A stretch of 25,201 bases of DNA from a virus. Of the stretch, positions 1,455-25,201 are shown piece by piece; the stretch's first letter is position 1; the number at the start of each line of letters is the position of its first letter. The stretch spans positions 1-25,201 of IMG/VR virus record IMGVR_UViG_3300023178_000248, one strand, 5' to 3'. A program made the translations under genes and the position numbers. Under the pieces are notes generated by a model. The model was not told the DNA's origin and made no database searches. It was given only the letters and a program-made list of their open reading frames with translations.

Positions 1455-2456
1455 ATGGCAATAAAGAAAAAAGATTTTAGTAGTATTAAGAAGAAGTTCT
1501 CTACTTCTGCAAAATACAAACCCCAAAGGTTTTTTGACTTAGGGGAACAATTCTTGGATGCTGTTGGTGTTCCTGGCCCTGCTATTGGTCACTTGAATAT
1601 GTTCTTAGGTCACAGTGATACAGGTAAGACAACTGCTTTAGTTAAAACTGCGGTTGACGCACAAAAGAAGGGTATCCTTCCTGTGTTTATCATCACTGAA
1701 CAAAAATGGTCTTTTGAACACGCACAACTTATGGGTTTTGAGTGTGAAGAAGTCGTTGACGAAGAAACGGGTGAATTGGATTGGGATGGATTCTTTATTT
1801 TCAATAACAATTTTGATTACATTGAACAAATCACAGATTACATTAATGACTTATTAGATGCACAATCAAAAGGTGAATTAGATTATTCACTGTTATTCTT
1901 GTGGGATTCTGTAGGTTCAGTTCCTTGTAAAATGACTTTTGATGGTAAAGGTGGTAAACAACACAACGCAGCAACATTGGCTGATAAAATTGGTATGGGT
2001 ATCAATCAACGTATTTCAGGTTCTCGTAAAGCGGACTCAAAATACGAAAACACATTGGTTATTGTTAACCAACCGTGGGTTGAACTTCCCGACAATCCAT
2101 TCGGTCAACCAAAGATTAAAGCTAAAGGTGGTGAGTCAATTTGGTTAAACTCATCTTTGGTATTTTTATTTGGTAATCAGAAAAATGCAGGGACAAACAA
2201 AATCACCGCAGTCAAAGACAAGAGAAAAGTAAAATTCGCAACACGTACAAAGATATCTGTTATGAAAAACCATATTAATGGTTTGGGTTATGAAGATGGT
2301 AAAATCATTGTAACTCCTCACGGATTTTTGGCGGGTAAAGAATCTACTGAAGAAAAGAAATCGATTGAAGCTTATAAGAGTGAACAATCGGAATATTGGA
2401 AAGAGGTCATCGGTACTGATGGTGACTTCAAATTGGAAGAAGAAAAAGAAGTGTAA
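1455..2456 (+). CDS. uvsX: UvsX-like recombinase (RecA/Rad51 family)
   Basis: This 333-aa ATP-dependent strand-exchange protein would form filaments on SSB-coated ssDNA and drive recombination-dependent replication. The Walker A loop is GHSDTGKTT at 52-60 (Lys58, Thr59). A Walker B-like strand SLLFLWD ends at Asp151. Glu82 in the segment FIITEQ sits where RecA-family enzymes carry the catalytic Glu. The NQPWVELPDN stretch after about residue 204 is placed like the DNA-binding loop 2 region. The acidic C-terminus (KLEEEKEV) resembles the regulatory tail of RecA and UvsX. Length is near that of T4 UvsX (about 390 aa) though shorter. It follows the SSB gene and precedes the nuclease gene by 18 bases. 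Host-type RecA is less likely given the phage neighbours and divergent sequence. Confidence 0.88.
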   Translation: MAIKKKDFSSIKKKFSTSAKYKPQRFFDLGEQFLDAVGVPGPAIGHLNMFLGHSDTGKTTALVKTAVDAQKKGILPVFIITEQKWSFEHAQLMGFECEEVVDEETGELDWDGFFIFNNNFDYIEQITDYINDLLDAQSKGELDYSLLFLWDSVGSVPCKMTFDGKGGKQHNAATLADKIGMGINQRISGSRKADSKYENTLVIVNQPWVELPDNPFGQPKIKAKGGESIWLNSSLVFLFGNQKNAGTNKITAVKDKRKVKFATRTKISVMKNHINGLGYEDGKIIVTPHGFLAGKESTEEKKSIEAYKSEQSEYWKEVIGTDGDFKLEEEKEV

Positions 2457-2474
2457 CCTTTTAACACGATAAAA

Positions 2475-3491
2475 GTGGTTAAAACATTATTAGTTGACGG
2501 AAATAATTTATTCAAAATAGGTTTTCACGGTGTTAGAGAATTCTACCACGAAGGAAGACATATTGGAGGTATCTATCATTTTGTCAATACAATCAGAAGG
2601 TTCTTATCTGAACAAAACTATGATAAAGTAATCGTCTTTTGGGATGGAGAAAACAACTCCTCCCAAAGACGACTTATTTTTCCTGACTACAAACAAAACA
2701 GAAAACAAACTTTAAACGAATCTAAAAGAGAATCATTCGAATGGCAAGTCCAACGAGTGAAGACTTATTTGGAGGAAATGTTTGTGCGTCAAATTTGTAT
2801 AGATGATACCGAAAGTGATGATTTAATTGCCTATTATTGTCAAATATCAGAAGATGAATACAAAACTATTTTTTCTTCAGATAAAGACCTTACACAACTT
2901 ATCTCGGATAAAGTAGAGGTGTACCAACCCATGAAGAAGATAACCCTTAAAAACGGAGATATGGTACCTCTAAAAGAAATCTCAATCCCACATCAGAATA
3001 TATCAACATTCAAAATTATATCAGGTGATAAATCTGATAATATTGATGGTATTCAGTATATGGGGGAAAAGACTTTTGTTAAGTTATTTCCTGAGATAGT
3101 TGACAATACGGTCACAGTTGATGATATTAAACAACGTGCTGAGGAATTACACAAAACCGACAAAGATAATCGAGCACTACAAAACCTTTTATCTGGTAAA
3201 ACAAGAAAAGGGGTTTATGGTGAAGAATTTTTTGTTATTAACAAAAAACTCGTAGATTTGTCACAACCATTGCTAACAGAAGAGTCAAAGGAGACTATTG
3301 AACTTTACCACACAGAAAACTTAGACCCTGACGGTAGAGGATATAAGAACCTAATGAGGATGATGATGAGTGATGGAATTTTTAAGTACTTACCTAAACA
3401 TGACAATGCTTGGGTAGAATTTTTAACACCCTTTATGAAATTAACACGTAAAGAAAAAAGAAGATTTAAAAACAAAAAAAGAAAATTATGA
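2475..3491 (+). CDS. 5'-3' exonuclease / RNase H, FEN-1 family (T4 Rnh-like)
   Basis: This 338-aa metal-dependent nuclease would remove RNA primers and 5' flaps from lagging-strand fragments. Family acidic residues are all visible: Asp8 in LLVDGNN, Asp57 in VFWDGE, the cluster D111/E113/D115/D116 in DDTESDDL, Asp136 and Asp138 in SSDKDL, and Asp185 and Asp188 in SGDKSDN. They are followed by a helix-hairpin-helix-like segment GIQYMGEKTFVKLF (about 192-205). The C-terminal 17 residues are strongly basic (RKEKRRFKNKKRKL), probably a DNA-contacting tail. The start is GTG at 2475. No ATG lies upstream in frame close enough, and the next residues VKTLLVDGNN place the first catalytic Asp at the usual distance. 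The stop overlaps the next gene by ATGA (3488-3491). Confidence 0.88.
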   Translation: MVKTLLVDGNNLFKIGFHGVREFYHEGRHIGGIYHFVNTIRRFLSEQNYDKVIVFWDGENNSSQRRLIFPDYKQNRKQTLNESKRESFEWQVQRVKTYLEEMFVRQICIDDTESDDLIAYYCQISEDEYKTIFSSDKDLTQLISDKVEVYQPMKKITLKNGDMVPLKEISIPHQNISTFKIISGDKSDNIDGIQYMGEKTFVKLFPEIVDNTVTVDDIKQRAEELHKTDKDNRALQNLLSGKTRKGVYGEEFFVINKKLVDLSQPLLTEESKETIELYHTENLDPDGRGYKNLMRMMMSDGIFKYLPKHDNAWVEFLTPFMKLTRKEKRRFKNKKRKL

Positions 3492-8532: not shown

Positions 8533-8994
8533 ATGGCAGACGGTAAAACATATGGTGTATTTTTCCCATTTAGGGATAGTATTAAAGGTGACTATGTAAG
8601 CTTAACTCAATCTTCAGACGAAGAGATTAGAGCTGATTTATTACATCTGATACTAACCAGAAAGGGTGGTAGATACTTTTTACCTGATTTTGGAACGAGA
8701 ATATATGAGTTTATTTTTGAACCATTAGACGGTCCTACATTCGACGCAATTAAAGCAGATGTAAGACAAGCGGTAGATAAATACATACCAAACCTACAAA
8801 TAAATGACATTACCATTGAACCATATTTAGAATCTGAACCATTACCAGGAGAAATAAATTATGAAGAATTAGGTAATCAAGTATTTAAAATACCTGGTAG
8901 AGGGACTGAAGAATACACGGCAAAATTAAGAATAGATTATTCTATCATTAATGGGACATTCTCATCTAAAGATTTTGTAATAATTAATATTTAA
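8533..8994 (+). CDS. Baseplate wedge protein, gp25-like (GPW/gp25 family)
   Basis: This 153-aa lysozyme-like-fold wedge protein is conserved across contractile tails and would join gp6-type and gp7-type proteins in the baseplate inner ring. The diagnostic stretch is present at about 35-70: DLLHLILTRKGGRYFLPDFG, then TRIYEFIFEPLD, matching the family pattern of a helix, T..GER...P.FG and FEP. The C-terminal half (LRIDYSIINGTFSSKDFVI) gives the closing beta-strands. It is slightly longer than T4 gp25 (132 aa) owing to an insertion around residues 100-125. It is followed after six bases by the gp6-like gene, the usual partner. No Shine-Dalgarno is present. This is the first gene after the terminator, so it probably begins the late structural operon. 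Confidence 0.88.
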   Translation: MADGKTYGVFFPFRDSIKGDYVSLTQSSDEEIRADLLHLILTRKGGRYFLPDFGTRIYEFIFEPLDGPTFDAIKADVRQAVDKYIPNLQINDITIEPYLESEPLPGEINYEELGNQVFKIPGRGTEEYTAKLRIDYSIINGTFSSKDFVIINI

Positions 8995-9000
8995 TAGTAT

Positions 9001-10839
9001 ATGGCAAATCGTAAAATATCATACACAGAAAGAGACTTTGAAGGTTTAAGGCAGGACCTCATAAATTATACTCAACAGTATTATCCTGAATTAATTGCTA
9101 ACTTCAACGATGCCTCTATCTATTCTGTGTTTATGGACTTAAACGCGGCTATCGGTGATAACTTACATTACCACATGGACCGTAGTATACAAGAGACGGT
9201 TTTACAATATGCGCAACAAAAGTCTTCAATTTACAACATTGCCAGAACTTACGGTTTAAAGATACCAGGTAATAGACCATCAATTGCATTAGTAGATGTT
9301 TCAATTACGGTACCTGCAAATGGTGACCAAGAAGATGAAAGATACTTGGGTGTGATGAGAGCAGGTTCACAATTTATCGGTGCAGGTCAAGTATTTGAAA
9401 ATCCTAATGATATTGATTTCTCTTCTCAATATAATAGTGAAGGTTACCCTAATAGAACTAAGATACCAAACTTTGATTCTAACAACAGATTGGTAAATTA
9501 CACAATAACTAAAAGAGAAGTAGTAGTTAATGGTATAACAAAAACATTTAAAAAAGTTATTAATAATAATGATGTTAGACCATTCTTTGAATTTTTCTTA
9601 CCTGAAAAGAATGTGCTTAGTATTACATCTGTAATTCAAAAAGATGGTACTACCTATCAGTCACCACCACAATATGGTGAATTTATCACTTCACCAAATA
9701 AGTGGTATGAGGTTGATGCTTTAGCCGAAAGTAGAGTCTTTATTGAGGACCCAACAAAACCATCAGACCAACCAGGTATTAAAGTTGGTAAGTATATTGA
9801 AACAGATAATAGGTTTATTTCTGAGTTTACACCTGAAGGTTATTGTAAGATTACTTTTGGTGGTGGTACAACAACACCTGAAGAACAATTACAACAATTT
9901 GCGAGAACGGGGGTTCCTTTAAGAATACAAGATTACCAAAACAATATTGGTTTAGGTTTAACAGTAAAACCAAACACTACACTATTCGTTCAATATAGAA
10001 TCGGTGGAGGTAGTGCTACGAATATAGGTGTTAACGTTATTACTCAATTTGGTACTACAAGATTTGATGTGAACGGACCATCAGACACTATTAATCAAAA
10101 TGTTATTGAAAGTTTAAGATGTACAAACGTTACTGCTGCTATTGGTGGTGGTGACTTACCAACAACTGAAGAAGTTCGTAACATGGTATCATTTAACTTT
10201 GCAGCACAAAAAAGAGCGGTAACTATTAATGACTATAATTCTTTAGTTAGAACAATGCCGAGTAAATTTGGTGCACCTGCAAAGGCATCTATTGTAGAAG
10301 AGGATAATGCTATTAAGGTTAAAGTATTATCACGTACTCCAGACGGTAAGTTAACGGAATCAGTATCAAACACTCTAAAACAAAATATTGCTAATTACTT
10401 ATCAAACTACAGAATGATAAATGATTACATTGAGGTTACTACCGCTAAGGTAATTGATTTATCGTTTGAACTTTCAGTCGTTATTGACGCTACTCAAAAT
10501 CAAGGAGATGTTATTACTAATGTTATAGGAGGGGTTAACGGATACTTTACACCTCAAAGACAACAATTAGGTGCGAATGTTAATGTTTCAGATATTAGAA
10601 GAATTATACAGGATGTGCCTGGTGTAATTAGTTTGGCAGACCTTAAAGTGTTTAATAATGTCGGTGGTAGATATTCTAATTCACAAACGTCACAAAAATA
10701 TTCTGACAGTGCAACCAAACAAATTCAATTGATTGACGATACGATATTTGCAGAACCAAGTCAGGTATATCAAATAAGATTTCCTGAAAGTGACATTACT
10801 TGTAAAATTAAGATAGCAAGTAATACTGAATTCTCTTAA
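9001..10839 (+). CDS. Baseplate wedge protein, gp6-like / baseplate J family
   Basis: This 612-aa protein corresponds to T4 gp6 (660 aa), which forms the continuous inner baseplate ring. The N-terminal YTERDFEGLRQDLINY and YYPE (about 7-30) is the hallmark opening of this family. The next segment, DLNAAIGDNLHYHMDRSIQE (about 47-66), is the conserved helical part. The C-terminal region at about 480-555 (IDLSFELSVVID, then GANVNVSDIRRIIQDVPGV) matches the baseplate J C-terminal beta-alpha domain. The middle is enlarged by beta-rich sequence. Position immediately after a gp25-like gene supports the call. It is followed by a 72-base AT-rich gap with an inverted repeat. Confidence 0.87.
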   Translation: MANRKISYTERDFEGLRQDLINYTQQYYPELIANFNDASIYSVFMDLNAAIGDNLHYHMDRSIQETVLQYAQQKSSIYNIARTYGLKIPGNRPSIALVDVSITVPANGDQEDERYLGVMRAGSQFIGAGQVFENPNDIDFSSQYNSEGYPNRTKIPNFDSNNRLVNYTITKREVVVNGITKTFKKVINNNDVRPFFEFFLPEKNVLSITSVIQKDGTTYQSPPQYGEFITSPNKWYEVDALAESRVFIEDPTKPSDQPGIKVGKYIETDNRFISEFTPEGYCKITFGGGTTTPEEQLQQFARTGVPLRIQDYQNNIGLGLTVKPNTTLFVQYRIGGGSATNIGVNVITQFGTTRFDVNGPSDTINQNVIESLRCTNVTAAIGGGDLPTTEEVRNMVSFNFAAQKRAVTINDYNSLVRTMPSKFGAPAKASIVEEDNAIKVKVLSRTPDGKLTESVSNTLKQNIANYLSNYRMINDYIEVTTAKVIDLSFELSVVIDATQNQGDVITNVIGGVNGYFTPQRQQLGANVNVSDIRRIIQDVPGVISLADLKVFNNVGGRYSNSQTSQKYSDSATKQIQLIDDTIFAEPSQVYQIRFPESDITCKIKIASNTEFS

Positions 10840-10911: not shown

Positions 10912-13900
10912 ATGCCAAAATCAATCAGAATTAGAACTGAACCTGGTGTTGATAGAAATATCAACGTTAAAATTGACCAAGAGTTTGACTTCTTAGAGAT
11001 ATTGTCTTTAAAGTTAAGACAAGAAGACATATATACACAATTCTGTGCTGACTATGGTGTTGTTGTTGGTCGTGTAATAGCTAATGGTGGTGTAGGTGTA
11101 CCAAACGCTCACATATCTATTTTTATTCCTATAGACCAAGTTGATGAAAACGACCCAGTAATATCTACTTTATATCCGTATAAATCTCCTGAAGGTAAAA
11201 ACGAAGATGGATTTAGATATAATTTATTACCATATCAAAATGAATATTATGGACACACTGCCACAGGAACATTCCCGACAGATGAAGACGTTTTAACAAG
11301 AAAAGAAGTCCTTCATGTATATGAAAAATATTATAAGTATTCAGTAAGAACAAACGATTCGGGTGACTTTATGATTGTCGGTGTACCGTTAGGTGCTCAG
11401 AAATTAGTAATGGACTTAGACCTGTCAAATATGGGTGAGTTTTCATTAAGACCTTCAGACTTAATTAGAATGGGTATGGGTGTACCTGCTCAGTTTGACG
11501 GTCAATTATTTAAGGCATCTGAAAACATTGATTCACTACCTCAAATATTACATGATGTTAAAGACATTGATGTATCTTCTTTTTGGGGTCAAGAGGAGTC
11601 TTGTGATGTTGGTATTACAAGAGCCGATTTTGATTTAAGGGAGAGAGGTATTGAAATATTACCACATGCAGTTTTTATGGGTTCAATCATATCCTCAACT
11701 GAGGAAGATTTCCTAAAGGCTAGTTGTAAACCTAAAAAGGAAACAGGGAATTTATGTTCTTTGTCTACAGGTCCAGGTCAAATATTGGCAATTAGACAGA
11801 CGATTGCCGTTGATGAGAATGGTGACCCAGTATTGGAAGAATATAAATTAGAAGAAGGTGGTAATGTTATTGATGAAAACGGTACTTGGGTAGTAGATTT
11901 ACCTATGAATCTTAATTATGTAACTACAAACGAGTTTGGTGAGAGAGTAACCTCTAACGACCCTACTATTGGTATACCTACTAAATCAAAATATAGATTT
12001 AAGATAAAATGGCAAAATGAAGGGGGATTACAAGCCGATATATTAAGAGCTAATTATTTAATTCCAAATATTAAAGAACATTGGGATATTAACCCTAATA
12101 GTAATTATCCTAACCAACCTGAGGGTAAGTTTAATAAATCTTATTCTTTTTCTTTAGATTGGAATGATTATGAAGATAAGGCTGCGGCTATAAAATGTGA
12201 GGACACATTCTATCAATTTAATTTTAATAAAGTTTATACGACTGCTGCTCATTTAGACCGATTTAAATGGGGTTTTAATAGACAAAAACATTTAGGTATT
12301 AAAGATATCTTAAATAGAGATTGTGCAAATGAAACAAATAAGTTTCCAACTAACGAGGCACAAAGAAATTCTGATTTTATATACTTCTTAATGTCAATTG
12401 TTTTGGCTTTATTTTATCCTATTGGTATCCTTTTAATTATTGTTGCACATTTTTTATCTTTAATTGCGGGTATTATTACATTTTTTATAAACTTACTACG
12501 ACCATTTATTAATTTAGTTTATAGAATTTTATGTCCTGCAATTGCATTTTTATCTAAAAAAGTCAAAAGGAGTGATTGTGGAGAACCACTATTACCTGAA
12601 AAAGTATCAAATCCAATTACGAATTTAGCGTTACCTATGTTGACGTATCCTGATTGTGAAAATTGTAATTGTGAGTCAACACCTGTTGGTGATGGTGCAG
12701 TGGGAACAACTGAAGACCCTCAAACTGTTGAACAGCCGCAAGTTTTATCGAGTGATTTGGCAGATTTTAATGATAGTTTTGCATACAATGAAATCAAATG
12801 TGGTGATAGTGATGTTGAAGATGAATATTTTACTCAGGTATATTCAGGTTATGATGAAGGAATACCTGACGGATTAGATGGGGAATCTGACCCTATATGG
12901 TATAAAACGCCTTTGTATTATCAAACAAATGAAATGAATAATGCAATAAGTAATAAGTGGTATGCTACTGATACAATATCAATGGCACAATCCTTAAACT
13001 TATTAAATCAAAGAAGTAGGTATTTTTTATCTAACCCAAATAAAATAACGACTAAAATAATTAATTCGGAACACGGTCCTTTAAGTTATGCGGGAGGTAG
13101 AAATACTTTTGATGATATGCCTCTAATAATGGTTTGTAGGGAAAGTACCGATTATAGTCCTGGTCAGTTAATAACATTTAACGATACAAATTTAATAAAC
13201 GACCCAAATATTAGTGGTCAGACATCTAATCAATTTAGTACTGACTCTATTACAGGTGCAGTTGAGTACAATCCAAGTGCATATATCACTAAACCTATAA
13301 GATATATAAACAGTAACGGTAGTATTGTAATGACTAATTTAGATTTACAAAATAACGATGTTACAGGTAAAACATATAATTTTAAAACAGGTTTAGAATA
13401 TTTTCAGGTTGTAACTGCAACTACATTAAGTAATGTTGAAAGCTTAGTAGGTTCTAATTCTATACTTAAAACTTATATATTCAATAAAGACTCGGCATAC
13501 AAATGTATTCATGATAGTACCGCTAATAAAATAATAGATAAAACTATTAAAGAATTTGAAGATTATGGAAATCTAAAATTTGTTATATTAACTAGAGGGG
13601 TGGACCCTTATACTCCAAAACAAAAAATTAAGTATGACTTAAGTGATTTATTTGATAATAATAATTTAACTGTTGAAGGTGACTACTATTTAAATGTTCC
13701 AATACAACCTAACGGGTCGGGAAGTTGGAAAATAGATTACAGAACTCCTCAACCTCATTATTATAGGTCGAGTAATAATTGGGCATCAGCATCCAATAAT
13801 GATGACAAATTATTTAGGGAATCATTTTTATTTAGTGTAAAACCTACAGAATTCAATAGCTTCGATAGTCAATCATTAACAACGTACTCGTCTATTGATA

Positions 13901-15771
13901 AACAAATTCAAAGTAGTTTAAATGGTGGGGCTTTCGCACCTAAATTAAATGGGTATGATGGAAGTAATGGAAGTACTAAATCAAGTAATGAATTTGAAAT
14001 TAGTCATAATGGTCCGTCACAGGGTAGGGTTGAAGGTGCAACATATCAATATACGTCAAAAGAATTCGGTAAAAAAATAGATAATCATTTCACCTATTAT
14101 ACTGTTTCTACAACATATAAAAATTTGACTAACACTGTTCCACATACTACCATGTCAAATCATGAAAAATTAATATTTAGGTCAGATAGGTTGCCTGGTT
14201 CTGATAATATGGAACTTGGGCTTGTAGATTCATACCATGATACACAAACATTTGTTTTCCATTTAAATGATGGTTTTTCAATTTATAAAATTAGCGATGA
14301 TGGTTCACAATCGGCATCATATGACTATGGAGAATCTTCTGGTGTTTCTGATGAGACAGGTAATTTTGGTGATATGACAGGTGATACAAATAGTAAATTA
14401 GCTGGTATGTTAAGTACATTTACTTGTGAAGGTATGGTGCCTTTTGATTGTTATGTTGGTGATGGTGTTACGTTTACTGCGGATACTAATTGTGATATTA
14501 AAAGAAGAGTAGAAAACGGTTGTTATACTTTTGTTAATCCTGTTTTATTTGTTAGTATCCCAAGAGATATCAAAAATTTCATCGAATGGAGACAAAGATA
14601 TAAATATGTTTTTGCAGCTTGTAGAAACATATTTGGACACGCTTTTCAAAATAACTGGATTAATGGTACATTATACATGCCATCATTCCAAAAGCGTACT
14701 TTTTATGATAGTCAAAATAATGCTAAAAGGTACAAGTTCTGTGGAGACCCAAATCAAAATGCGTTCGGTTTATTTTTTGCTAATAGAGAGTATAGAGGAC
14801 CTTTGTATTTTAATACGGACTCTAATTCTTTCTACTATAGGTCTACACCTTATTTCGATAACGGTTTTGTTTCCCAAAATATATCACAGACAGGTGTATT
14901 AAAGGCGTTTACTGATTATCCAGGTCGTAATGATGGTCAAATATTTTATCCAACTACAATTATGGACATGGGTCCAAAAACAGAGTTTTTAAAAGATTTA
15001 ATATTAGAACCAGAGTTTCAATCTTATATTGTTAATAGAATACCTTCAACCACATTTAAAGATGTGTCAGGAATATTAAATCTATACATAATCAACCGAC
15101 TAACAAATAAAACCTTTTTAGAGACGTTATTAAAACCTATAATTAAAGGTGATAGTGTTAGGGCATCTTTTTCAAGAGATGGTGGTATATTTAATAATTC
15201 TTATGATGCAAGAATGGATGGGGACTATGTTCAAATGATTAGTATAAATTCAGAGTTTGGTGTTATACCTTATATTGATGGTAATTACACGGATAGTATT
15301 TATGTTGGTAAAGATAGTAGTGGAAGTTCACTTATGGGTATATGGTTTACAAGTGAAGATGAACAAAGAAGAGAGTTAGGGCCAGGACAATTAACTATTG
15401 GTAATGTTACTAGTGAATTTAGTTATCCTAACTCGCAAGAAGTACCTTCATATCAATGGAAGGTTAATGTTAATAACACATGGTTTGGTAACCAAGAAAA
15501 TACATGGGCGACCGATACTAATGATTTAATCACTGTAAAATATCAAGATGAAAACTTTACAGGTGCTACTGACTATATGAAAACAGCTGCGGGTACTGGT
15601 TATGGGTATTTATATAATGAAAATCCACCAGGAACTGAAATAACTAATGTGGCGGTTAATCAAGATAATAAATTCAGAGTTGGTTCACCCTTCTATTTCT
15701 ATTTTGGATTAAGACGTGGAAGAAGTGCCATGAATAGGTTTATAACCAAATTTGTAATACTTGACGACTAA
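10912..15771 (+). CDS. Giant baseplate-region protein with CarboxypepD-reg-like domain and internal hydrophobic segment
   Basis: This is a 1619-aa probable virion protein; I recognise no family for the whole chain. Residues about 50-175 look like a carboxypeptidase-regulatory-like beta-sandwich (VVGRVIANGGVGVPNAHISI, then TNDSGDFMIVGVPLGAQKL), a fold common in Bacteroidetes surface proteins. Residues 489-548 are a long hydrophobic stretch with a Pro-Ile-Gly turn (IVLALFYPIGILLIIVAHFL, then LIAGIITFFINLL), enough for two or three membrane helices. It is followed by basic KKVKR and a Cys-rich patch (C556, C582, C585, C587). The rest (about 600-1610) is Asn/Ser/Tyr-rich and beta-like, ending with a compact FYFYFGLRRGRSAMNRFITK motif. 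It lies between gp6-like and gp7/gpI-like genes, so it is probably baseplate or a tail-tip part. It is coupled to the next gene by TAATG at 15769-15773. Confidence 0.85.
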   Translation: MPKSIRIRTEPGVDRNINVKIDQEFDFLEILSLKLRQEDIYTQFCADYGVVVGRVIANGGVGVPNAHISIFIPIDQVDENDPVISTLYPYKSPEGKNEDGFRYNLLPYQNEYYGHTATGTFPTDEDVLTRKEVLHVYEKYYKYSVRTNDSGDFMIVGVPLGAQKLVMDLDLSNMGEFSLRPSDLIRMGMGVPAQFDGQLFKASENIDSLPQILHDVKDIDVSSFWGQEESCDVGITRADFDLRERGIEILPHAVFMGSIISSTEEDFLKASCKPKKETGNLCSLSTGPGQILAIRQTIAVDENGDPVLEEYKLEEGGNVIDENGTWVVDLPMNLNYVTTNEFGERVTSNDPTIGIPTKSKYRFKIKWQNEGGLQADILRANYLIPNIKEHWDINPNSNYPNQPEGKFNKSYSFSLDWNDYEDKAAAIKCEDTFYQFNFNKVYTTAAHLDRFKWGFNRQKHLGIKDILNRDCANETNKFPTNEAQRNSDFIYFLMSIVLALFYPIGILLIIVAHFLSLIAGIITFFINLLRPFINLVYRILCPAIAFLSKKVKRSDCGEPLLPEKVSNPITNLALPMLTYPDCENCNCESTPVGDGAVGTTEDPQTVEQPQVLSSDLADFNDSFAYNEIKCGDSDVEDEYFTQVYSGYDEGIPDGLDGESDPIWYKTPLYYQTNEMNNAISNKWYATDTISMAQSLNLLNQRSRYFLSNPNKITTKIINSEHGPLSYAGGRNTFDDMPLIMVCRESTDYSPGQLITFNDTNLINDPNISGQTSNQFSTDSITGAVEYNPSAYITKPIRYINSNGSIVMTNLDLQNNDVTGKTYNFKTGLEYFQVVTATTLSNVESLVGSNSILKTYIFNKDSAYKCIHDSTANKIIDKTIKEFEDYGNLKFVILTRGVDPYTPKQKIKYDLSDLFDNNNLTVEGDYYLNVPIQPNGSGSWKIDYRTPQPHYYRSSNNWASASNNDDKLFRESFLFSVKPTEFNSFDSQSLTTYSSIDKQIQSSLNGGAFAPKLNGYDGSNGSTKSSNEFEISHNGPSQGRVEGATYQYTSKEFGKKIDNHFTYYTVSTTYKNLTNTVPHTTMSNHEKLIFRSDRLPGSDNMELGLVDSYHDTQTFVFHLNDGFSIYKISDDGSQSASYDYGESSGVSDETGNFGDMTGDTNSKLAGMLSTFTCEGMVPFDCYVGDGVTFTADTNCDIKRRVENGCYTFVNPVLFVSIPRDIKNFIEWRQRYKYVFAACRNIFGHAFQNNWINGTLYMPSFQKRTFYDSQNNAKRYKFCGDPNQNAFGLFFANREYRGPLYFNTDSNSFYYRSTPYFDNGFVSQNISQTGVLKAFTDYPGRNDGQIFYPTTIMDMGPKTEFLKDLILEPEFQSYIVNRIPSTTFKDVSGILNLYIINRLTNKTFLETLLKPIIKGDSVRASFSRDGGIFNNSYDARMDGDYVQMISINSEFGVIPYIDGNYTDSIYVGKDSSGSSLMGIWFTSEDEQRRELGPGQLTIGNVTSEFSYPNSQEVPSYQWKVNVNNTWFGNQENTWATDTNDLITVKYQDENFTGATDYMKTAAGTGYGYLYNENPPGTEITNVAVNQDNKFRVGSPFYFYFGLRRGRSAMNRFITKFVILDD

Positions 15772-20364: not shown

Positions 20365-23322
20365 ATGGCGAATAACAAGAAGAAATATTTTTATCCACCT
20401 GCACCTCCGAGTGGTAATGAGTCATTCTCACCAAACTTGGTAGGTTTTCAAGTTAATAATGGTGGGGGTTTAACTCAAGGGAACTTCGAGTTTACTACTT
20501 CTATTGTAGAAAAGGTAAACAGAACGTTTGAAACTGGAGTTTTTTCAAACCCTATTTCTTTATTGGATATCGATGTTAAAAGTATTGAAGATTCTAAGGC
20601 GATTGCTCTTAAAAACTTTCGAGTATACCCGAACTACGATATTAGTCAGGTAACAAATTATGCATTATATGGTTCGTTACAAAAAAGGTTATCGGCATCT
20701 ATTACTAAAATTATTCATTATTTCCCTGCGTGTATTGAAGTCAATAGGGTAAAGTTATTAGACTACTCAACTGCAAACACTGCGAGTAATATCAGTTTTA
20801 ATCAAACTCAAAATACGACAACATTCAAAATGGATGTTACTCGATTTATTAATCATTTTGATATTGATTATTCAAAGAATGCTACACGTAATATAGAAGT
20901 AAGACCATTTGCAACGAGTCCATTACGAAACTTAACCAAAAACTATCAAAAATATGCATTGTATGTTGATGATATGGAAACTGAATATAAGATGGTTAAT
21001 TTTATACCGTCTACTGTATTATCGGCAGGAACGGTGACGGTGACTGTTGAAGGTAATCCGTTCAGTGGTTCATCATCAACAACATCTACTTTGGTGTTAA
21101 GACCAAATAAGTTTGAAACTGAGGTTGCATTTAAAGAACCGTTTGATGAAGTTGAAGATTTCCTTTTAAATAGGTTTAGTAATCCACCATATAAAGCAAC
21201 TTTTGATTTAGTTGAGGAAACAGATTCAGGTAGGTTTGTAAAAACAAAAAAATCAGCAGTTTGGCCAAAAAATGGTTTATGGAACTTAGACATCGTTACT
21301 GAGAGGTTTGACGAGTATTTGGCGGAAATTAGTAATATTGCGTTATTATTAGATACGAATAAGACTGATTTAATTGTTCGTTTTTTAACGACAGGTGCAT
21401 TTAAGGACTTCGATACTGGTGACCAAAAAATAGAAAAGGTATTACAAATTTATGGTAGAAGTTTTGATGAAACGAAAAAATTCATCGATGCGTTATCATT
21501 TATGAACTCAGTTAATTACACACCTCAAAATGATATACCTTCAGAGTTATTAAAGAATTTAGCCCAAACATTAGGTTGGAATAATAATATATCTCCAATT
21601 ACTAACGATGACTTTTTAAGTTCAGTATTTGGAACTAAAAATAAATCGATATACCCTGGTTTCCAAAACGACCCTACACCAAATCAGTTAAACTATCAAT
21701 TCTATAGGAACCTTATATTAAATTCTGCATACCTATTCAAATCAAAAGGTACGAGAAGAAGTATTATGGCTCTTATGGCCTTTATAGGTGCACCTAAAGA
21801 TTTAATTGAATTTAATGAGATAGTATATGTTGCCGATGGACCGATTAACGTTGAAAGATTTAATGGTGAGTTCTTAAAAATATCGGGTGGTACAAAGGTA
21901 GATGTTATTCCTCAGTTGGACCCTAATGTAACTTACAATATACGAGGAAAAAAATACACAGGATTTACTACTTCAACTTCAGTGTTACAAATAGATAGTA
22001 CAAGGGGTGATTACCCTATGGATGATAATGGTTATCCAAAGAGACCAACAGTAAATAACGACTTTTTCTTTGAGAAAGGTTCAGGTTGGTATATCCAAAC
22101 TCCTGACCACAGGTCACCTGAAAAATTAGATGTTACTAATTCTACATTTACAGGTGCTAATCCTAATGTTCAAACGACTCTTGAAACATTTACTTACGGC
22201 CAGAAATACTTTGATAGGTTTAGACAGTTCCCATATATGAATTTAGGTTTTGGGTTAACTAAGACTATCGATAACAACAAATCTTGGGACGATACTGAAA
22301 CGGGATTAAGAAGAAACAGAGATGTGTACAATGCGTACTACGAAGTTGCTGATGAAAGATTAGTTTTAAACGCCAAGAATGTTGAGTTGTCACTTAACAT
22401 GGGTCAGGGTATCTTATATGATATTTGGAGAATGTCGAGAAGGTACGATTATCCATTCCCTTCAACAGGGTTAACGGCTCCATATCCATCACCATACGGA
22501 AAAGATTGGACGGTCATTAATCCGAGACCAAAAGAAAAGACTTTCTTTGAGTTTGCTCAAACATTCTACAATAACATGATTAATGTTAGGAACCGTCAAA
22601 CCATCAACGATGGTGCTCATAATGGATATCCTACATTACAATCAATTTATTGGAAATACCTTCAATCTGAGGAGACGGTTAATATACCGTCAAATAAGTA
22701 CACTTACCAAAAGATGATTGACTTTACTTTAGGATTAGGTGATTACTGGACTAAGTTGGTAGAACAAATGATTCCAGCATCTACGATATGGGTGGGTGGT
22801 CAAAAAATGGAAGATGTAACTCTTTTAAGACAGAAGTATGTGTACCGTAGACAAAGAGGTTGTGAATGGCAATTGGTGGAGTGTATTCCTTGTGAATATA
22901 ACGGTCAGTTATATTCTTATGACTGTATCGACCAAACGATAAGTTGTAGTGTAAACCTTGATTCGATACCAACTATTTTAACTAACAGTATTAGTAATTG
23001 TGTTTCTAAGTCAGGGTATACGTCAACAGATTGTGTATTGGCAAGTTTAGTGAGTGATTGGTATGTCGATGTTAGGTTAGATAGTGATGTGTTAGTACAA
23101 GAAAAATTCTTTACTGGATATGGTAATCAAGATTACCCATCTAATACTGATTGGATTAATGCATTGAATCAGAAGCTAGAGTATTTATATCAAAATGGTT
23201 TGAATTACTATATAGATGAGAATAATGTTTTAACAGTAAGTAATACTACTTGTTATGACGATTTCACTGATAAAAAACTAACGGTAAATGTTGGGGTAGA
23301 CATACAAATTAATTGTAGTTAA
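20365..23322 (+). CDS. Tail protein I / gp7-like baseplate wedge protein with Cys-rich C-terminus
   Basis: This 985-aa protein contains, at about 360-480, a helical region like phage tail protein I (P2 gpI, the counterpart of T4 gp7). Segments are YGRSFDETKKFIDALSFMN, SELLKNLAQTLGWNN, and NLILNSAYLFKSKGTRRSIM followed by ALMAFIGAP; the KGTRRSI helix pair near 460 is the most characteristic. The N-terminus is Pro-rich then beta-like. The last 150 residues are Cys-rich (C833, C840, C843, C853, C860 and more) and look like a separate domain. T4 gp7 is 1032 aa, so the length fits. With the gp6-like and gp25-like proteins this would complete the baseplate wedge core, although here five genes intervene between it and gp6. 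The stop overlaps the next start (TAATG, 23320-23324). Confidence 0.7.
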   Translation: MANNKKKYFYPPAPPSGNESFSPNLVGFQVNNGGGLTQGNFEFTTSIVEKVNRTFETGVFSNPISLLDIDVKSIEDSKAIALKNFRVYPNYDISQVTNYALYGSLQKRLSASITKIIHYFPACIEVNRVKLLDYSTANTASNISFNQTQNTTTFKMDVTRFINHFDIDYSKNATRNIEVRPFATSPLRNLTKNYQKYALYVDDMETEYKMVNFIPSTVLSAGTVTVTVEGNPFSGSSSTTSTLVLRPNKFETEVAFKEPFDEVEDFLLNRFSNPPYKATFDLVEETDSGRFVKTKKSAVWPKNGLWNLDIVTERFDEYLAEISNIALLLDTNKTDLIVRFLTTGAFKDFDTGDQKIEKVLQIYGRSFDETKKFIDALSFMNSVNYTPQNDIPSELLKNLAQTLGWNNNISPITNDDFLSSVFGTKNKSIYPGFQNDPTPNQLNYQFYRNLILNSAYLFKSKGTRRSIMALMAFIGAPKDLIEFNEIVYVADGPINVERFNGEFLKISGGTKVDVIPQLDPNVTYNIRGKKYTGFTTSTSVLQIDSTRGDYPMDDNGYPKRPTVNNDFFFEKGSGWYIQTPDHRSPEKLDVTNSTFTGANPNVQTTLETFTYGQKYFDRFRQFPYMNLGFGLTKTIDNNKSWDDTETGLRRNRDVYNAYYEVADERLVLNAKNVELSLNMGQGILYDIWRMSRRYDYPFPSTGLTAPYPSPYGKDWTVINPRPKEKTFFEFAQTFYNNMINVRNRQTINDGAHNGYPTLQSIYWKYLQSEETVNIPSNKYTYQKMIDFTLGLGDYWTKLVEQMIPASTIWVGGQKMEDVTLLRQKYVYRRQRGCEWQLVECIPCEYNGQLYSYDCIDQTISCSVNLDSIPTILTNSISNCVSKSGYTSTDCVLASLVSDWYVDVRLDSDVLVQEKFFTGYGNQDYPSNTDWINALNQKLEYLYQNGLNYYIDENNVLTVSNTTCYDDFTDKKLTVNVGVDIQINCS

Positions 23323-25201
23323 TGGCAATCAGGTATTTTAGATTAGAACAAGCGGCGAGTGGTTCTTCACCAGTCACAGGGGATACTATTGTAATGAAGT
23401 GGGATGATACTGTTGTACCTGCGGGTCTTAATCAGGCAACTACTTTAAATTTTATAAATGCTTTTCCAAATGCGACATGGCAATTTAGGTCTCGTGTTTG
23501 GGATTTGACCGACTTGGGTACGGGATATTCAGGTTCTTTCGATACTGAAATGATTTCAGGTGAGCCATGGGCTTATGTTAGTACGATAGGTACTAGAGTT
23601 TATGTTGGGTATACTTTTGATATTGATACCACATTTTTTGCGCAAAACTATATTACAGTAGAAGGTCCGACAGGTGATTTTAAATCGCCAAGATATCAAA
23701 CTAATTTCTATAGTGCTTCCTCATTTAATGATACCTTAAAACTTATTGGAACTGACACGAATAGATATGACTATATTAGGTTAACTACTCAAGACGATTA
23801 TGACCATGTTACAAATTCGGGGGCGACTACCTATAATTTTAGTGCTGCAACTGGTGTTAGTTCTGAAATAGATGTAAATAGTGGTACGGCTATAATTCCA
23901 TATAGTGCGACTTCCGCTAGAAATTATTTTAATAATTTATATGACGGTTGGATAACTGAATCTGACGATTGTTCAGGTAATGAGGTGACAAGTGCAAATG
24001 CTGTTATCTACTCTGGTAATATGCACAGTAGGTCAGAGTCTTACGAAAGTATATATGGCGGTGTATGTCTTAGGGTTGATTCTGCTCAGATACCATATTC
24101 GGGTTCACCGTCAGATATAAATTTAGCCAATAATTATGACGTTGTAGACACTTGGTATACCGATTGTGACGATTGTCAAAGCACTTCACCATATTATGGT
24201 GTGTATCACTTTAGTGGGGGTACTGATTGTCAAGGTAATAGTATTACTCCTGTTGTTTTTACTTCAGATGTATTAAGTTATGGAGACCCACTTGTTGGTG
24301 GTCCAGTAAATACTGGAGTATTCTTCAAGGTAAATGGAGAATGTTTAGGAGGTGAGCAATATACGATTTCTCAAATTGAACCGACAACAACTACAGGAAC
24401 TATAAGTGCCACTTATTCAACTTGTGCGGATTGTACGGGTAGTACTAATCCAATTGAAACACACTATTACTTCTCAGCATGTACTGACGGTAGTATATAT
24501 AGAGCGGTTATTCTTGACTTTGATGCTGAATTAGGTGCGGTTAGTAATGGAAGAACTTATTTACTTGAAGATATTAGTGATTTACCTAATGGTTGTTATA
24601 CTGTTGTATCTTCACAATTAAGTTATACTGATTTTGTGGGGTACGGACCAGATTCTAATGCCACTCAATCATCAACAGATTGTGATGATAGTTTATGTGA
24701 TTTACCGACTCCAACACCTACTAATACTCCAACACCAACTCCAACTATATCTTTAACCCCAACTAATACTCCGACACCCACTTCTACACCACCTGTAAGT
24801 ACTATACTTGCTGAAAAATGTGATATACCTGGTATTGTTTATCAGATTACAGGTTATACTGGTAATTCGATTGTGGACCAAGCATTTTATTTAGATTTTT
24901 CTGATAATAGTGGATGTTATAAAGTAGTTGGTGACGGAGAAATTTCAATATTTTTAAATATAACAGGAGTACCAACCACTGACTATGAAACTTGTGAGGA
25001 GTGTAATAACTCAACACCTACACCGACACCTACAAATACTCCAACACCTACACCAACACTGACTAATACTCCGACACCTACACCATCTATTACTCCTACA
25101 TCTTCACTTACGCCTACACCTAGTATTACTCCTACTTCATCGGTAACTCCTACACCATCAAATACTCCTACTTCATCGGTTACGCCTACACCATCTATTA
25201 C
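23322..25201 (+). CDS. Repetitive adhesin/fibre-like protein, 5' part (runs off window)
   Basis: It starts in the TAATG overlap after the 985-aa gene and stays open to the right edge (at least 626 residues). It begins MAIRYFRLEQAASGSSPVTG with a beta-rich N-terminal region (about 1-275). Then come modules bounded by Cys pairs: C282/C285, C368/C371, C454/C459 and C558/C561, that is at intervals of 86, 86 and 104 residues. Modules share a [YH]FS.CTD-like strand and a G-C-Y-x-V-V strand. Thr/Pro linkers occur at residues 462-491 and from 565 to the edge, the latter becoming a 12-residue repeat. There are no membrane or signal segments. It is probably a distal tail fibre or receptor-binding protein, its amino end attaching to the baseplate; this is inference from repeats and position. 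Confidence 0.82.
   Translation, partial: MAIRYFRLEQAASGSSPVTGDTIVMKWDDTVVPAGLNQATTLNFINAFPNATWQFRSRVWDLTDLGTGYSGSFDTEMISGEPWAYVSTIGTRVYVGYTFDIDTTFFAQNYITVEGPTGDFKSPRYQTNFYSASSFNDTLKLIGTDTNRYDYIRLTTQDDYDHVTNSGATTYNFSAATGVSSEIDVNSGTAIIPYSATSARNYFNNLYDGWITESDDCSGNEVTSANAVIYSGNMHSRSESYESIYGGVCLRVDSAQIPYSGSPSDINLANNYDVVDTWYTDCDDCQSTSPYYGVYHFSGGTDCQGNSITPVVFTSDVLSYGDPLVGGPVNTGVFFKVNGECLGGEQYTISQIEPTTTTGTISATYSTCADCTGSTNPIETHYYFSACTDGSIYRAVILDFDAELGAVSNGRTYLLEDISDLPNGCYTVVSSQLSYTDFVGYGPDSNATQSSTDCDDSLCDLPTPTPTNTPTPTPTISLTPTNTPTPTSTPPVSTILAEKCDIPGIVYQITGYTGNSIVDQAFYLDFSDNSGCYKVVGDGEISIFLNITGVPTTDYETCEECNNSTPTPTPTNTPTPTPTLTNTPTPTPSITPTSSLTPTPSITPTSSVTPTPSNTPTSSVTPTPSI
24705..24794 (+). repeat. First Thr/Pro linker in the fibre-like gene
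   Basis: Thirty codons (residues 462-491), almost all Thr, Pro, Asn or Ser in TPTPTNTP-like order, form a low-complexity extended linker inserted into the third Cys-pair module. At DNA level it is a degenerate ACTCCAACACC-type repeat. It is likely to be an extended spacer between folded modules. Confidence 0.85.
25014..25201 (+). repeat. Second Thr/Pro linker with 36-base tandem repeats
   Basis: A Thr/Pro/Ser-rich coding repeat starts just after C561 and continues beyond the window. From 25089 it settles into 36-base units (25089-25124, 25125-25160, 25161-25196, then the start of a fourth). These encode the 12-residue pattern xTPTSS(L/V)TPTPS. Units two and three differ at few bases. They are in frame and coding, not CRISPR. 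Confidence 0.88.

Follow-up and report, generated by a model that had tools for sequence, protein, structure and literature searches.

Introduction

Membrane-active segments of phage tail proteins are already known, and little is understood of the way in which contractile phages bring their DNA through the last membrane of the host. Tape measure proteins, such as T4 gp29, carry hydrophobic segments that are thought to act at the host membrane. T4 gp7, which is a component of the solved baseplate, bears in the GenBank record of its gene (L199 in our set) the note 'C-terminus is predicted integral membrane domain'; such an annotation on a solved baseplate protein is a warning for claims that are based on hydropathy. 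In the tail knob protein gp9 of Bacillus phage phi29, the pore-forming L-loops are bundled together inside the virion; when the genome is released they emerge and assemble into a barrel of helices whose outer face is hydrophobic (PMC6542822). Here we add to these systems a candidate, a helix module carried by an unannotated family of baseplate-region proteins.

The giant protein is encoded in a baseplate cassette

The window analyzed here is the whole stretch of 25,201 nucleotides of a 25-kb virus record (IMG/VR IMGVR_UViG_3300023178_000248), which carries, in order, a gene for a UvsX-like recombinase, other genes of replication and nucleotide metabolism, the gp25 and gp6 genes and an ORF of 1619 amino acids. 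The cassette includes the following features:

8533..8994, + strand: gp25-like baseplate wedge protein (Pfam GPW_gp25, 8e-11)
9001..10839, + strand: gp6-like (Baseplate_J) wedge protein (Baseplate_J, 3e-7)
10912..15771, + strand: 1619-residue baseplate-region protein with an ATG start, founder of an unannotated family
20365..23322, + strand: 985-residue protein that closes the conserved cassette, with a weak match to a 1336-residue protein of Microcystis phage Mel-JY01

On the 3' side of the 1619-residue gene follow, in order, proteins of 580, 289, 360, 302, 985 and more than 626 amino acids. The 985-residue protein (20365..23322), for which PHROG and Pfam profile searches gave no family match, is likely a gp7/gpI-like wedge core, judging from gene order and inspection by eye. 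The succession of gp25, gp6, giant protein, proteins of about 600, 280, 300 and 300 residues and a 985-like protein recurs in window-like as well as in distant relatives, within the reach of their contigs. The nearest isolates, found through gp6 or UvsX, are Flavobacterium phage immuto and Microcystis phage Mel-JY01, where gp6 is followed by smaller proteins and by a protein of 1266 or 1336 amino acids without a comparable hydrophobic segment. The protein encoded at 23322-25199, cut by the end of the window, carries long PTPTPT / TPTPSIT repeats and is a possible stalk. At locus L146, the ORF immediately 5' of gp6 (2103-3251; MRYKAYKYRIYPNKEQQ...) is, by eye, a candidate of the IS605 OrfB/TnpB type.

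Tail sheath matches were found in 8 of 11 genomes, one of them above the Pfam cut-off; in a 162-kb relative the PHROG sheath match reaches 9e-54, and genes for a tube and a T4_baseplate protein lie beside it. The sheath of this relative (L193, 9445-12642) measures about 1065 amino acids and is thus far larger than T4 gp18 (about 660). A bS21 gene was present in four of the 11 family genomes (L037, L055, L078, L097), and genome contigs matched two Bacteroidota MAGs, both uncultured. Taken together, the sheath, the bS21 genes and the MAG contigs suggest that these are Bacteroidota myoviruses. The bS21-encoding Bacteroidetes myophages of freshwater lakes, for which baseplate assembly and sheath genes have been reported, resemble them in the bS21 gene and in size (331 kb there, 326 kb here), and in the available portion of that report a protein of the 1619-residue type, or its hydrophobic segment, is not singled out (PMC9723584). 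The 1619-residue protein is probably a baseplate component specific to one lineage of large phages with contractile tails, whose hosts are probably Bacteroidota.

A strongly hydrophobic stretch within the giant protein

The initial annotation had described a strongly hydrophobic segment in a large baseplate-region protein. The ORF is real, its synteny with gp25 and gp6 agrees with that description, and the segment is conserved in the family. The features of this region are:

12376..12552, + strand: hydrophobic helix, residues 489-547 (hydropathy, family conservation, AlphaFold models, periodicity)
12448..12450, + strand: H513 inside the hydrophobic helix, kept in 55/60 near-clade members
12556..12570, + strand: KKVKR basic flank, residues 549-553 (sequence)

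Residues 489-547 (FIYFLMSIVLALFYPIGILLIIVAHFLSLIAGIITFFINLLRPFINLVYRILCPAIAFL) include two R and no D, E or K, and form the sole strongly hydrophobic stretch of the protein in a hydropathy scan. The Kyte-Doolittle mean peaks at 2.51 over 30 residues and at 2.76 over 19 residues, a value that on its own a rare shuffle can exceed; none of 3000 shuffles attained the 40-residue mean of 2.37 (maximum 1.79). A 19-residue mean above 2.0 was found in 95/96 homologues versus 2/566 other ORFs of at least 250 amino acids from the same loci. The earlier remark that such segments are rare in baseplate proteins holds as a matter of degree: of the 16 T4 proteins of baseplate, hub and tube that were compared, gp7 (2.07 over 19 residues, 1.48 over 30) and the tape measure gp29 (2.20 and 1.58) alone come near.

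The giant protein resembles T4 gp7, which is likewise large, encoded next to gp6 in a phage with a contractile tail, and provided with one hydrophobic helix once predicted to span the membrane; the gene of the giant protein directly follows gp6 in the gp25-gp6 cassette of a contractile phage. The helix of gp7, however, is much weaker and lies near the C-terminus (886-904), and the window holds another gp7 candidate, the 985-residue protein. No gp7 match was obtained with PHROG or Pfam or by structure, and a PDB profile search was empty although the PDB contains T4 gp7. The likeness to tape measure proteins lies in the hydrophobic segment, whereas the N-terminal half of the giant protein is beta-rich and its gene stands within the wedge cassette. 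In the 162-kb relative, a separate ORF of 2223 amino acids follows the tube genes.

A predicted single helix with a polar stripe

AlphaFold models of residues 1-640 and 421-1619 each place one helix at 489-547, with pLDDT values of about 76-87. In 94 non-redundant 40-residue cores, polar residues recur with a period of 100-101 degrees (z of about 20 over within-segment shuffles, a score inflated by the relatedness of the sequences), and the two halves of the core share their phase in 81% of them versus 33% by chance. Periodicity and phase thus indicate that the first 40-50 residues form one continuous helix, whose polar stripe is narrow (7.6 polar residues in 40, about 80% hydrophobic). Residues 489-547 are therefore predicted to form a single long alpha-helix with a narrow polar stripe. 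A hairpin, or two or three membrane helices, had been proposed initially, and for the window protein both models and the phase-continuous periodicity speak for one helix instead. Nothing in the predictions indicates an ordinary soluble, polar-faced bundle; a soluble coiled coil shows a largely polar surface crossed by a thin hydrophobic stripe, and the helix described here is roughly its inverse.

A hairpin may exist in those relatives (e.g. L049, L088) that combine about 100 hydrophobic residues with a short polar return. The idea of a polar return strand matched in length to the helix was dropped, since no correlation was found in the single-helix subset (Spearman 0.18).

A continuous helix of 59 residues is typical of bundles, and a stripe that stays regular for 40-50 residues would fit an extended packing interface. 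Three or six copies could thus form a permanent hydrophobic bundle, buried in the baseplate or in the axis of a trimeric appendage, that never meets lipid and whose polar stripe would face another protein or a lumen. T4 gp7 offers a precedent, albeit a weaker one, for a hydrophobic helix in a solved baseplate. The helix of the window is far greasier than those of T4, with a 30-residue mean of 2.51 versus 1.48 for gp7 and 1.58 for gp29, and we regard this arrangement, the main rival to a role at the membrane, as somewhat unlikely.

Conserved cysteines bracket the helix

The hydrophobic insert is bracketed by the motifs C471-x(7)-P-x-N and LPMxTYPDCxxCxC, which include the following features:

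12322..12324, + strand: C471, on the N-terminal side of the insert, in 60/60 near-clade members
12655..12672, + strand: CxxCxC (C582, C585, C587) within LPMxTYPDCxxCxC, invariant in the near clade

C471, P479, P580, C582, C585 and C587 are invariant in the 60 near-clade rows, some of which are near-identical, and the pairs C429/C585 and C582/C587 co-occur perfectly, the exceptions being few and related. The KKVKR flank and the cysteine patch C556, C582, C585 and C587 listed in the initial annotation are all present; C556 is not conserved (22/69), and C471 had not been listed. The bracketing cysteines likely hold the base of the helix together, as a metal site or as disulfides.

The insert drifts, varies in length and was lost once

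A protein-level scan of IMG/VR yielded 25 loci, and in two alignment scans at least 592 of 600 and at least 463 of 599 of the pattern matches listed were confirmed; the best 80 of at least 592 and the best 80 of at least 463 relatives were taken further. A 40-residue hydrophobic core occurs in the same place in at least about 170 IMG/VR loci. Family contigs reach 401 kb and come from many metagenomes, of marine, freshwater and rumen origin according to sample identifiers and MAG titles. A tblastn search of the INPHARED isolate phages with three family members was empty. The family is large and mostly uncultured, and no annotation for it was found.

Among 42 non-redundant members, mean pairwise identity is 24% in the insert versus 58% in the N-terminal domain, and 38 of them have no D or E in the 30-residue core. 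The hydrophobic stretch is kept in all close homologues; neither of the two outcomes named at the outset as refuting the initial proposal, its absence there or a predicted soluble helical bundle, was observed. A codon test of hydrophobic conservation between the window and L001 gave an uninformative 15/20 versus 65% expected. Across the family the hydrophobic part spans 37 to 107 amino acids, and in some rumen relatives the insert is more amphipathic.

In four homologues (L140, L144, L146, L147), which are natural deletion variants, the insert is swapped in frame for a polar linker of 30-50 residues; the flanks are kept and the cysteine motif is missing as well. In a quick maximum-likelihood tree, from which L146 was left out as a near copy of L140, the three insert-less homologues form one clade (support 91) nested in insert-bearing relatives (99), and we therefore conclude that there was one loss. 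Since the flanks were retained, the surrounding fold does not need the insert.

These data bear on the permanent bundle, for which sequence drift and large length variation would be odd in a packed core; about 100 hydrophobic residues in some relatives and the loss of the helix without loss of the flanking fold also speak against it. Such a wide range of lengths would be easier to expect of a segment that faces lipid than of a protein core of fixed size. Relatives with 90-107 hydrophobic residues also resemble ordinary multi-helix membrane proteins, as would be expected if the segment tethered the protein, or a baseplate under construction, to the infected cell's membrane at assembly, or served a host-membrane function such as superinfection exclusion, with no part in entry. 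As no signal peptide is evident by eye at the N-terminus of the window protein, insertion from the cytoplasmic side would be needed. The conserved position of the gene inside the baseplate cassette argues against such an anchor. We hold this explanation to be decidedly unlikely.

Proposed role of the helix

By analogy with the phi29 gp9 loops, we tentatively read residues 489-547 as a membrane-active helix module that the baseplate keeps in store for entry into the host, a reading to which we give slightly less than an even chance. The helix would be a module inserted between two conserved cysteine-bearing anchor motifs. In the scheme that we infer for its location in the virion, its oligomer, its trigger and its insertion into a membrane, helices of neighbouring subunits would be packed against each other so that their greasy surface is shielded; rearrangement of the baseplate on contact or contraction would release them, and the released helices could insert into a membrane of the host envelope, where they would either serve as an anchor or build a barrel, polar stripe inward, and so let the tube or the DNA through.

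The membrane reading is supported by the fact that hydrophobic character is kept while the sequence drifts; drift, length variation and clean loss of the insert together favour it, to a moderate degree only. The giant protein shares with phi29 gp9 a non-terminal hydrophobic helical loop inside a tail protein, with conserved non-membrane domains on either side. It differs in that phi29 is a podovirus of a Gram-positive host, in length (599 amino acids for gp9 versus 1619) and in the mild hydrophobicity of the gp9 loop (19-residue mean of 1.29 versus 2.76). PDB sequence searches were empty, with neither phi29 gp9 nor any pore-forming protein found as a homologue, and gp9 was absent among the fold matches listed. 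The lack of such homology and the far less hydrophobic phi29 loop weaken the membrane reading, as do the T4 gp7 helix, which belongs to a solved baseplate component, the length of 40-59 residues, which exceeds one membrane crossing, and the more amphipathic rumen relatives together with the clade that has no insert.

A broader proposal, unlikely in this full form, is that a lineage of contractile Bacteroidota phages, jumbo phages included, uses a dedicated membrane-inserting baseplate helix with a four-cysteine staple at its base as an entry pore or anchor. If true, the contractile phages of this lineage would own a membrane pore that is built in and distinct from the tape measure protein. The conserved helix is a concrete candidate for a part in DNA passage across the last host membrane, and its natural variants, which range from a single helix through a far longer hydrophobic stretch to an amphipathic form or no insert at all, represent a ready comparative series.

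Domains flanking the helix

The two parts of the protein that flank the helix region are:

10912..12351, + strand: conserved N-terminal part, residues 1-480, beta-rich, with CarboxypepD_reg / Ig-like resemblance (alignment, AlphaFold, PF13620 in relatives, weak fold matches)
12673..15768, + strand: C-terminal part, alignable in window-like relatives (alignment)

The N-terminus had been likened to a CarboxypepD-reg domain; PF13620 was matched, with a best E of 2e-4, in 3 of the 11 relatives scanned, which gives the resemblance some backing in relatives, and Pfam gave no such match in the window protein itself. A fold search with the N-terminal part returned weak pilin and Ig-like matches only, and BFVD contained one match to the family, A0A8S5LA66, an uncharacterised metagenomic viral protein. 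Profile and sequence searches found no match of the 1619-residue protein to T4 gp7, gp9 or gp10 or to any PHROG, Pfam or PDB family; a hit to phrog_4721 (E 0.0046, residues 438-523) was dropped as weak and absent from the homologues scanned.

The C-terminal half is more variable than the N-terminal domain in the alignment of relatives, and a fold search with it, from an AlphaFold model too poor to use, gave no match. SprB repeats (PF13573) were found by Pfam in 4 of 11 relatives scanned, all freshwater (best 5e-6), and not in the window protein. In the C-terminal parts of L014, L015, L017, L018 and L020, the SprB repeats correspond to the gliding-adhesin repeat of Bacteroidota. On sequence grounds, SprB and CarboxypepD_reg in relatives are consistent with an adhesin-like virion protein of Bacteroidota phages. 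Adhesin-type repeats argue for a protein of the virion surface and hence against an anchor at assembly.

The same domains, together with the greater variability of the C-terminal half, would suit a receptor-binding or fibre-anchoring protein, whose helix merely joins a baseplate-binding N-terminal domain to a variable adhesin part. A plain stalk of this kind is expected to be a polar-faced coiled coil, in contrast to the roughly 80% hydrophobic 40-residue core observed, and we hold this explanation to be very improbable.

A second hydrophobic segment of 45-55 amino acids was seen in the C-terminal half (residues ~1000-1100) of L069-L073, L081, L083, L084, L090 and L103. In L010, L016, L107 and L125, the reading frame of the homologue stops early (605-1078 amino acids), reflecting a frameshift, a split gene or an assembly error.
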